DNA of 64,000 bases from Apostichopus japonicus (taxonomy: Eukaryota > Echinodermata > Holothuroidea > Aspidochirotida > Stichopodidae), in assembly GCF_037975245.1 (NCBI RefSeq), contig NC_092568.1, positions 6,238,501 to 6,302,500 on the forward strand. Direction: 5' to 3'. A program made the translations under genes and the position numbers. Below, in pieces: positions 45,226-57,200 of the stretch (the first letter of the stretch is position 1; each line of letters starts with the position of its first letter). The notes beneath the pieces were generated by a model that saw only the letters and a program-made list of their open reading frames with translations, ran no database searches and was not told where the DNA came from.

Positions 45226-48200
45226 CTGAAGGAAAACAAAAAGTCCACAGTTTATTCTTCAGATTTCAGATTTTTTTTATATTTGTGAATATGCAAAAGT
45301 TGTCTATGTGCAAACAATCTTAATCCCAATTTTAATGGATCAAAGTGTTGAATATTGAAACTTTGTCAACTGTTTTATCGTAGTGAAGTAGTTGTTATTC
45401 ACAAAGAGCTCAAGAATGCTGAAGAGTTTTGTCAACCTTTTTAAATTAACAATTAAATTTTTGATAAATCTATGGGCTGTTATCGGGCGGATAGCGGAAT
45501 ATTGGATATCGGCCAGAACCAATAGTGGCGATATTGGCACAACACTATTTTGCAGTATATTTCTGTTTTGTTCTTGAAGTTAATTTCAGGTGATAAATCA
45601 GTACTAAGACACCAAGGTGTAAACAAATCTTACCGTCTCTCAGACATCCAATTCGATACATAGTTGGCATCCGTATGACAAACGCAAAAATATCATCAAT
45701 GAAGGTATTAAGAGCTTTGTAGGTGAGCATCCTCCATGGCAGATGAGCCACCGATTTCAGTTTGTAGTTAATAAACAGCTGGGGTGTCATCATGATAAAC
45801 CCTGAGAATACAAATATAACAAAATAAATACAAACAATGGGGTGTCATCATGATAAACCCTGAGAATACAAATATAACAAAATAAATACAAACAATGGGG
45901 TGTCATCATGATAAACCCTGAGAATACAAATATAACAAAATAAATACAAACAATGGGGTGTCATCATGATAAACCCTGAGAATACAAATATAACAAAATA
46001 AATACAAACAATGGGGTGTCATCATGATAAACCCTGAGAATACAAATATAACAAAATAAATACAAACAATGGGGTGTCATCATGATAAACTCTGAGAATA
46101 CAAATATAACAAAATAAATACAAACAATGGAGGTGTCATCATGATAAACCCTGAGAATACAAATATAACAATGAGGTGTCATCGTGATAAACCCTGAGAA
46201 TACAAATAGAACAACATAACAACAAACAATGCAGGTGTCATCGTGATAAACCTTGAAAATACAAATATAACAAAATAACTACAAACAATGGAGGTGTCAT
46301 CGTGGTACAACCTTAAGAATACAAATATAACAATATAACTATAAACAATGCGGGTGTCACCATGATAAACCCTGAGAATACAAATATAACAAAATAACTA
46401 CAAACAATGCATGTCATTGTGATAAATCCTGAGAATACAAATATTACAACATAACTAAAACAATGGCAAGTCATCATGATCTAATTAATTCATTTTATTC
46501 CTTTTCATATAAAGGTTGGTTATTCAATGACATTATCAACTACCCATCCTAGAATAATATCTGTGGAAGTGAAGGTTTAACCAGAACATCTCTCTAATAC
46601 ACAATGATGAATAAAATTATCAAAGCACATTCATGCCATGAAGTCAACTTACCAAAAGTTAGAAGAAAACCATAGAGCATATTGAGTACAAATGAATACC
46701 AGCCTTTGTGTTCCTGGTAGAGGAGGGCGTAGACTGCATAACACCCAAGTAAAGGATACAGTAACCAGGAAAGGTACTTGAAAGCTTGCTGCAATATAAA
46801 AACAACATGGCTAACAAGATAATGAAGGGAAATGGACAGGCAGTGCACTGAAAGAGAAACACCTTCACACTGACAACTTAAATTCATTCTGCTAGGATCA
46901 ATCCTGCTAGGATCGAAACGTTACCTCTTACTTATTGAAGGGAAACCAACAGGCAGTGCACTGAAAGATAAAACACCCTTGACACTGACAACTTTAACTC
47001 ATCCTGCTCGGATCGAAGATCCTACTAGGATCGATCCTACTAGGATCGTACTGCTCGGACCGAAACGTCAGGCCCTCTAACTTAATGAAGGGAAACCAAC
47101 AGGCAGTGGACTGAAAGATAAACACCTTCACACTGACAACCACATCCTGCTAAGATTGAAGACCCTACTTGGATCGATCCTGCTAGTATCAAAGATCCTA
47201 CTAGGATCGATCCTGCTAGGATCGAAACGTCAGGCCCTCTGGGAAACCAACAGGCAGTGGACTGAATGATAAACACCTTCATACTGACAACTCATAGCAA
47301 CATAACTCTCAGAAAATGATATCAAAAGTATTTAAAGGTTTCCCAGAAAATTCAAAAGGATGTAATACCCAACATTCTAAAGATTGAAAACTTCCTGGAA
47401 ACCACAATGGGAAGGTAAAGAAAACAGAGGGCAGTATACAACTTACCATATCATACTCTTTAGTAGCACTAGCAGTGTATGATTCTTTGTCTGTGAATGT
47501 CAGTTTTGGTATAAATCCAAATAACATTTCATTTCGATCAAACTGGAAAGGAATGAAAACAGAGACATATTTATTAAATTAACCAACAATTCTATGTATA
47601 AACAAGAGATATATGAATAACCAGTGTGGGGGAACATTTCATTATGACGTGTGTAATTAAGTTCATGATATTAGACGATCTATGTAACAATGTTGTAAAA
47701 TAACACAACACCAATTTATTTATGAGAAATGTTGATTGGATAGGAAATGTATCTATATGGGATAAACTATAGTTGCTCTGGGGAGACTTAAAAGTTTTAA
47801 CCAGATAAGATACTTCCCCTAACAAAGTTACTACCCCTTAAAGGAAATGAAGTTAACCATTAAGGACAAGTGGAGTCTGATTTTGGTACAAAGCAAAGAA
47901 GATTATGACCTATTCTTGAGCAGCACTGGACACCATATCCTCTTAGTCATTCCCAGAACAGACTTACGATGTAATACTACAATAGATCTACACAGAGTAA
48001 CATTGGAATACAGGAAGATGGTTGCACCATGAAACAAACAGTTTACTATAGTTAAATTAGGTTCAACAAAACTAGATAAAAGTTATACCTTAACGGTACA
48101 GACTTTGGTTATCTTCCAGCAATCTATCAGTAGCCCTACAAACACACCAACTTTAACGACAAAATTAGTATCGTTGTCCATAATATAGAGCAGCACCACC

Positions 48201-54200: not shown

Positions 54201-57200
54201 CAAGTAACCAAGCAGAAGGACTGTCAAATAACTAAGCAGGACTGTCAAATAACTAAGCAGGACTGTCAAATAACCAAGCAGAGGACTATCAAATAACTAA
54301 GCAGGACTGTCAAATAACTAAGCAGAAGGACTGTCAAGTAACCAAGCAGAAGGACTGTCAAATAACCAAGCAGAAGGACTGTGAAATAACCAAGCAGAGG
54401 ACTGTCAAGTAACCAAGCAGAAGGACTGTGAAATAGCCAAGCAGAAGGACTGTCAAATAACCAAGCAGAAGGACTGTCAAATAACCAAGCAGAAGGACTG
54501 TCAAATAACCAAGCAGAAGACTGTCAAATAACCAAGCAGAGGGACTGTCAAATAAATAACCAAGCAGAAGTACTGTCAAATAACTAAGCAGAGGGAATGT
54601 CAAATAACCAAGCAGAGGACTGTCAAATAACCAAGCAGAGGACTGTCAAATAACCAAGCAGGACTGTCAAATAACCAAGCAGAGGACTGTCAAGTAACCA
54701 AGTAGAAGGACTGTCAAATAACCAAGCAGAAGGACTGTGAAATAACCAAGCAGAGGACTGTCAAGTAACCAAGCAGAAGGACTGTGAAATAGCCAAGCAG
54801 AAGGACTGTCAAATAACCAAGCAGAAGAATGTCAAATAACCAAGCAGAGGGACTGTCAAATAAATAACCAAGCAGAAGTACTGTCAAATAACTAAGCAGA
54901 GGGAATGTCAAATAACCAAGCAGAGGACTGTCAAATAACCAAGCAGAGGACTGTCAAATAACCAAGCAGAAGGACTGTCAAATAACCAAGCAGAAGGACT
55001 GTCAAATAACCAAGCAGAAGGACTGTCAAATAACCAAGCAGAGGACTGTCAAGTAACCAAGCAGAAGGACTGTCAAATAACCAAGCAGAAGGACTGTCAA
55101 ATAACCAAGCAGGACTGTCAAATAACCAAGCAGAAGGACTGTCAAATAGCCAAGCAGAGGACTGTCAAATAACCAAGCAGGACTTGGTTATTTGATATTC
55201 ATGGCCAATTACAATGCCTTCATATGATTGGGATAATATTTACAGTCCTTACAGAATCAAACCACTCCAGAGATGTCATACTCACGTTTTGTTATAGAAA
55301 ATGTGTATTTCTTTGAGTATTTGCCCTTCTTACTTGGATCTGGTGAGTAATTAACCTTTGTGAAGTATACATGTGCATAAATGCTGCCATTGTTCATCAT
55401 AGCCTATGAAAGGAAAGAGAATCAAGTGGTTTTTAGAGTAAACAGAATACATTAACATAATTAGTGAGGAGGAATGCATATTCCACTCTCATGTGACAAC
55501 AAATCTTGGAGATCATACACAAAAATGGTATTTGTCAGGGGATAGAGGACACAGGGCTACATTGATACAAGGTTCACAAAATAACCGTCCTAACTTGGAA
55601 CTTGTTATACCATATCTTAAACTGCATAACAATGTCAGCAAACGTACTGAAAGAGATCAATAGTAATACAAAGTATTAGTATAGCTTAATGATGGCCAAG
55701 GTGAGAGAAATTTACAATGGCTCCATGATAACCCATTCCTGTGATGATCACATATACACACTATATCACATATACAACAAGTATACACACTGGTATAGAT
55801 TAAGTATTCTCTTTTGACCAAGTGTTTAGTAAAGTTCAAGGAAGGCTGTTATCTTTACTGCCATCTGGGCTCCAGTGATGGCCATTTAACAGCCATACCT
55901 GACTGACTAGAGTGTACTGGGGCATCTGAACATAAATACTGAGGGAGGTAAAGAAACCCATCTCAGTATCACTGTACATGTACAGCAACTGTCATGAATA
56001 TATTCTATGCAATCAACAATTAAAAAATTAACCATATTTCTTAATGGACAAACCAGAATAACCCACCCAGATTCTGTATATCCACTGCATAGCAACAGGT
56101 CAACGACATTAACTGACACATACCTCATTAGAAGTCACACATACCTCATTAGAAGTCACACATACCTCATACAATACCTCATCAATACTCACACATAACT
56201 CATTAGAAGTCACACATACCTCTTCAGAAGTCACACATACCTAATTAGAAGTCATACATACCTCATTTGAAGTCATACATACCCCATAATTAGTAGTCAC
56301 ACATACCTTATACAATACCTCATGAGAAGTCACACATACCTCATACAATACCTCATCAATAGTCACACATACCTCATTAGAAGTCACACATACCTCATTA
56401 GAAGTCATACAAACCTCATTAGAAGTCACACATACCTCATACAATACCTCATCAATAGTCACACATACCTCATTAGAAGTCACACATACCTCATTTGAAG
56501 TCACACATACCTCATTAGAAGTCATACAAACCTCATTAGAAGTCACACATACCTAATACAATACCTCATCAATAGTCAAACATCACTCATTGGTAGTCAC
56601 ACATACCTCATTAGTAGTCACACATACCTCAGTGGCTGGAATAACATCAGTGTATGTCACAGACCCATCACCATTAGGACCACTTGTCCAGTCACCATAC
56701 TCAAGGTTGTCATATTCCCAAAAGAGTTTATCTGGATTAGTGAAATCACTGAAAAATTCTTCTTCTGAGATGAAAACTTTCATATCCTGTGAAAATAAAG
56801 AAACAGTAAGAAGTGAGTGCCTACTTAATATTTTTCATACGACCAAGGATTACTTACACATCCTCATAAAAGAGCATTCACAATCGAAAGCATCAAACCC
56901 AATCATCAATTCTGAAATATTTTTGAACATTTTGTGTCTTCACAGGTTCTATATTATTTGGTACTGCAACATGACAAAAAAGAAAATCAGACATGAAAAT
57001 AAGAAAATACTAAACAACAAGTACTTAACCATGAGGTTTTCTCCCAGTACTTCTTACATGAGTTACTTTCTCACAGACTCACAGCAATCTTCAAAGGTTT
57101 TATATTCTCATTGCTTGATAAAGAAAAGTGCATATAGTACAGACCACATTAATGCTATTACTGACCAAAAGTGTTCCTTTATCAAATAAATTCACTCCAA

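Follow-up and report, generated by a model that had tools for sequence, protein, structure and literature searches.

A 58-bp minisatellite in the gene CLPTM1 multiplies a splice acceptor together with the start of the exon that it serves. It is very probably a structure of the kind called a mirage in lancelets, that is, an ordinary minisatellite that grew blindly across a splice site and is tolerated because splicing settles on the copy attached to the body of the exon. Arrays that run across exon boundaries were also present at about 7% of the exons that we sampled from the same genome, and this result is more interesting than the CLPTM1 locus alone. Compared with the preliminary description of the locus, what is new is that the array belongs to a described kind, that many others occur in the same genome, and that boundaries are not preferred targets.

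A repeated acceptor at CLPTM1 exon 13

Tandem Repeats Finder gave the array a score of 809, with a period of 58 and 12.3 copies (Table 1). The intron part of the unit comprises 37 bases with TATTCTCAG at its end, and the exon part is the first 21 bases of exon 13; this layout across the intron/exon border, as already proposed in the preliminary description, was recovered by repeat finding, by reading frame and by alignment of the copies. Twelve acceptor-like AGs were found, 11 decoys upstream and the true one, in agreement with the "about a dozen" reported previously; their last bases lie at 46429, 46372, 46312, 46252, 46194, 46151, 46092, 46034, 45976, 45918, 45860 and 45802 (true). Successive AGs are spaced by 57, 60, 60, 58, 43 and 59 bases and then five times by 58, and the AG is retained in all 11 decoys, displaced by 1 base in two of them. 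A whole-genome DNA search with the array, of a type that ignores very common words, yielded a single match, namely the array itself.

Table 1. Features in and around the CLPTM1 array, in positions of the window
Feature	Positions	Strand	Remarks
58-bp minisatellite	45780..46480	minus	37 intron-end and 21 exon-start bases; 12 acceptors, one true and 11 decoy
CLPTM1 exon 13	45634..45801	minus	First 21 bases (45781-45801) within repeat unit
True acceptor AG of exon 13	45802..45803	minus	From exon 12 frame continuity and read-through in the paralogue
Young part of array	45804..46091	minus	Decoy exon starts 45859, 45917, 45975 and 46033 equal the true copy over 58 bases; 46091 has one change
Old, diverged copies	46150..46465	minus	Decoy exon starts 46150, 46193, 46251, 46311, 46371 and 46428
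Fragment like the exon part of the unit, possible remnant of one further copy	46466..46480	minus	By eye; inside the Tandem Repeats Finder array
CLPTM1 exon 12, spliced to exon 13	46653..46788	minus	Last base 46653, phase 1
21-bp array that reaches the donor of the second CLPTM1 exon located (borderline)	56116..56631	minus	Last exon base 56628; repeats GAG/GTATGT (slash, exon-intron boundary)

Placement of the exon start is central to this layout. When the end of exon 12 (46653) is joined to 45801, the CLPTM1 frame runs uninterrupted through the whole of exon 13. The Pfam CLPTM1 model has three matches in this gene, and because none of the matches listed falls at exon 13, we turned to a CLPTM1L-like paralogue on contig C3, which has one open frame across the equivalent point (VNGVYAFGFLLMMPQLFVNYK). 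Frame continuity and read-through in the paralogue place exon bases within the unit, and the start at 45801, on which the earlier account depended, therefore stands. From the conserved reading frames we infer that splicing would use the true site at exon 13. The name of the gene rests partly, beside the three Pfam matches, on a likeness of its exons to what we take to be CLPTM1. Thirteen CLPTM1 exons were located by peptide, and the exon with the array is the twelfth of them; we keep the number 13 from the preliminary description, which fits if one first exon was unseen. Of the 13 exons tested for arrays, exon 13 alone was flagged.

The copies differ in age. Over 58 bases, the six older decoys match the true copy at 74 to 95% identity, with a unit that carries a deletion at the lower end, and across the 11 decoys identity falls with distance from the exon (rho -0.85). 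The gradient described previously, perfect at the exon, is thus real but uneven, in that identity is as high as 95% in the second most distant decoy, and the five identical units noted at the same time consist of four decoys plus the true copy. At its distal edge the array is diverged, and at its exon-side edge the copy is identical to the neighbouring units. A codon difference follows a similar layout: four of the five most distant decoys carry, in exon register, a Thr codon (ACG or ACA) where exon 13 has Met, and ATG is found at this position in exon 13, in its six nearest decoys and in the second most distant one. The paralogue has Leu there, and Thr is presumably the usual residue in other animals; a search of the PDB for a relative of CLPTM1 that would indicate the ancestral residue gave none that was convincing (best E 0.81). 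With the distal decoys diverged and mostly bearing Thr, and the exon and near decoys bearing ATG, the distal units resemble fossils in which an earlier start of the exon is preserved; the exon's own copy would have changed in concert with the young part of the array. Exon-side growth, as the preliminary description suggested, fits this array and is weak or absent in most others: among the five other arrays with at least five decoys, the identity trend was negative in four (p = 0.011 in one) and positive in one. We have dropped it as a general rule.

Other repeats were observed in the same region. The window, i.e., the whole stretch of 64,000 bp that was analysed, is rich in minisatellites throughout, with 78 Tandem Repeats Finder rows, many of them overlapping, and periods of 11 to 220. 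The 21-bp array at donor 56628 is a donor-side counterpart of the array at exon 13, and was not counted by the automatic test described below because only about 4 exon bases lie inside it. Upstream of exon 12, at 46874-47291, about three related stretches noted by eye have similar open frames (VVSVKVFLFQ..., VVVSVKVFIFQ... and VVSMKVFIIQ...) and surround an acceptor-like TTTCTCTTTCAG; they are perhaps another repeat with splice-like sites.

Exon boundaries within arrays across the genome

The genome assembly comprises 671.6 Mb in 35 contigs and looks echinoderm by mitochondrial gene order and code. Contig C35 (16,099 bp) is mitochondrial, with tRNAs called by ARAGORN and proteins named by eye, in the order cox1-R-nad4L-cox2-K-atp8-atp6-cox3-S-nad3-nad4-H-S-nad5-nad6-cob-F-(rRNA gap) followed by E-T-P-Q-N-L-A-W-C-V-M-D-Y-G-L-nad1-I-nad2, which we take to be the arrangement in sea urchins and sea cucumbers. 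Read by eye under the invertebrate code, its cox1 has Lys and Met at positions where we assume Asn and Ile, respectively, to be usual; this is as expected under the echinoderm code, in which AAA encodes Asn and ATA encodes Ile. A small contig (C29:14745-31219) has broken COX1 matches beside the full COX1 of C35, and may be a nuclear copy or else mitochondrial sequence joined in error.

We surveyed conserved exons of three gene families, a non-random sample of exons, for which we counted 70 matches to the myosin head, 126 to kinesin and 57 to CCT/TCP1. Loci were picked by exon density before their repeats were viewed, and 124 of 196 exons were fetched in a first set and 46 of 57 in a second. 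Splice boundaries were placed by a simple score near each exon match, and a boundary was counted when at least 8 bases on each side lay in a tandem repeat or near self-match. In the first set, arrays were present at 3/124 acceptors and 5/124 donors, compared with 1/124 exon midpoints and 1448/18614 non-exon points; in the second, the values were 0/46, 3/46, 0/46 and 1088/5711. Lowering the threshold to at least 5 bases added one donor, in locus L047, for a total of 3 acceptors and 9 donors in 12/170 exons (approximately 7%, or about one in fourteen), with midpoints at 1/124 and 1/46. The exact interval for this fraction is 3.7 to 12.0% if exons are assumed to be independent, which they are not fully. 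The 12 arrays are spread over 9 of 49 loci, and all twelve were inspected by eye.

Boundaries do not attract arrays. They lay in arrays less often (11/340) than non-exon points did (2536/24325), and enrichment at boundaries was therefore rejected; it follows that targeting is not needed and that blind growth suffices. Compared with exon midpoints (1/170), the same boundary count gave a Fisher p value of 0.07. The excess of donors over acceptors was not significant (p = 0.15). Acceptor arrays should be the harder case, because transcription reaches all of the decoys ahead of the true site, and the 3 acceptors against 9 donors point that way at this non-significant level.

The individual arrays are diverse. 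The CCT locus L052 has one exon in which a 46-bp unit, composed of about 30 exon bases and GTATGTTTTTTCAG, is present in 11.8 copies, and another with a 121-bp unit in 7.1 copies. Within the former (L052:3184-3725), AG and GT flank each exon copy, and the stretch resembles a row of micro-exons with 14-base gaps. The acceptor unit of the kinesin exon in L022 is 42 bp long, with 5 copies, and that of the myosin exon in L033 is 124 bp, with 3 copies at 98% identity. In both of these (about 2896 in L022 and about 3740 in L033) the true acceptor boundary reads AG/GT, with GT immediately after it, a layout like that of a recursive splice site. The cases are also of unequal weight. In L047 and L055 the exon share is about 7-8 bases, and splice consensus explains part of the likeness; one of the two cases in L034 is weak; and five cases (two in L011, L031, L042 and the first tandem call of L034) consist of about two copies or one near self-match.

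Mirages and competing explanations

In CLPTM1 the frame is shifted by 6/11 decoys and kept by 5/11, and a stop is met after all 11. The preliminary description, according to which most decoys shift the frame or meet a stop, was right about the stops and loose about the shifts. Across the 12 survey arrays, there was a stop for 62 of the 63 decoys tested and a frame shift in one; this test took the nearest 10 of 42 decoys in L055 and left out one match in L031 and four in L052. Splice-site strength was judged with home-made scores based on general frequencies rather than on those of this species. By these scores, 7/11 CLPTM1 decoys equal or exceed the true acceptor. At least one decoy does so in 9 of the 13 arrays, CLPTM1 included, and site strength alone therefore cannot make the choice there; in the other four (L022, L031, L055 and the L011 donor) the true site outscores all of its decoys, so strength may decide. 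That the last of many acceptors must be picked, a point also raised previously, holds for what are near-identical copies, on the evidence of frame, copy alignment and scores.

Structures of this kind have been described in lancelets. In PMC3087553, "mirages" are minisatellite-like copies of intron-exon boundaries in globin genes and Adh3, with AG/GT signals in many units, either acceptor-side, with the intron 3' end and the exon 5' part (BflGb6), or donor-side (BflGb9), with units of 10-72 bp in Adh3 and 150-160 bp in the globins. According to the same paper, their lengths vary between haplotypes, RT-PCR suggests that splicing is undisturbed, and mirages are proposed as a route to new introns and as maybe general in cephalochordates. 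PMC3902484 adds mirages in PGBD5 and troponin C, and describes those of Adh and TnC as being without aberrant mRNAs. The CLPTM1 array is similar in that its unit spans the boundary of a real gene, keeps the splice signal in many copies and falls within the published size range, and BflGb6 shares its acceptor form. It differs from BflGb6 in having 12 copies of 58 bp rather than 3-6 copies of 150-160 bp, and from lancelet mirages, whose copies are 81-100% identical with the inner units homogenised, in that the exon's own copy is among the identical ones. The lancelet cases were examined for splicing and haplotypes, whereas the CLPTM1 array is known from the sequence of one assembly. Judged by its sequence, the array has the anatomical features of a mirage and is a known kind of structure.

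Human genes offer partial parallels. In PMC2630376, CBS 844_845ins68 is a tandem copy of the intron 7/exon 8 junction in which the more distal of two competing sites is strongly favoured; that text speaks of donor sites, and a title cited in it of 3' splice site selection. It is a two-copy version, with one extra copy of 68 bp carried as a polymorphism, where CLPTM1 has an array. The 31-bp CBS VNTR in the same source, c.1444_1467+7(16_21), has 16-21 copies and coordinates that span the exon-intron border, and by these would multiply a donor rather than an acceptor. In PMC2812944, minisatellite units at intron borders in human segmental duplications are described as able to switch on cryptic splice sites and give rise to new introns; those repeats are in exons or new introns of recent paralogues, unlike the long-lived acceptor array of CLPTM1. 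By analogy, the undisturbed splicing reported for lancelet mirages and the distal-site preference of CBS 844ins68 would count for the mirage reading. We found no report of such arrays in the literature on sea cucumber or echinoderm minisatellites at introns or splice sites, and for any organism the boundary arrays that we found reported were from lancelets and man, in a search of largely open-access literature.

We envisage that the minisatellite began when a stretch that by chance spanned the splice acceptor was duplicated in tandem, probably through slippage during replication or through unequal exchange. The spliceosome would then use the copy attached to the exon 13 body, as it would be favoured by information outside the unit, in the form of exon-body enhancers and the downstream donor (exon definition). 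Occasional decoy use would be cleared by nonsense-mediated decay, and the array would have no function of its own.

A functional role would take the form of a poison-acceptor rheostat, in which the fraction of RNA that is mis-spliced and degraded depends on how many decoys there are, and copy number tunes CLPTM1 output. The universal retention of the AG, the seven decoys that match or outscore the true site and the stops after every decoy are all in its favour, but unrelated genes carry similar arrays, and the stretch added by the nearest decoy contains a stop no more commonly in the real frame (10/13 arrays) than in the other two (19/26). There is therefore no sign of selection for harmless decoys, and the idea that stops were selected to make them so found no support; we regard the rheostat as quite unlikely. 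Stops bear as well on whether the array is coding, with decoy acceptors yielding protein variants with extra repeats: most copies preserve the codons of the exon part of the unit, but the longest open stretch after use of any decoy is 76 codons, and we give this explanation almost no credence.

It is very unlikely, too, that the array is an artefact of assembly and that the real genome has none, or a much shorter one. Five identical copies are a pattern that assemblers can miscount, and one mirage in the lancelet draft appeared to be misassembled, according to PMC3087553, but the remaining seven CLPTM1 copies are diverged and each distinct, and the same genome has many other diverged boundary arrays. 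The length of the array as assembled may be in error.

Significance of splice-site arrays

Beyond the one locus, we lean toward the view that splice-site arrays form a genome-wide, tolerated class that affects several percent of conserved exons (thousands, by extrapolation), in which decoys are often as strong as the true site and the choice is consequently set by the exon body. Because exon bases belong to the unit, turnover of such arrays could also carry codon changes, such as that from Thr to Met (ACG/ACA to ATG) common to exon 13 and its six nearest decoys. Each array amounts to a natural experiment on competition between near-identical splice sites within one transcript, and such arrays separate the effect of the splice site from those of exon body and position. 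Their presence at 12/170 sampled exons in an animal that does not resemble a lancelet suggests that the phenomenon is wider than lancelets, and with so many cases in one genome, the choice of splice sites and the origin of new introns both become testable.
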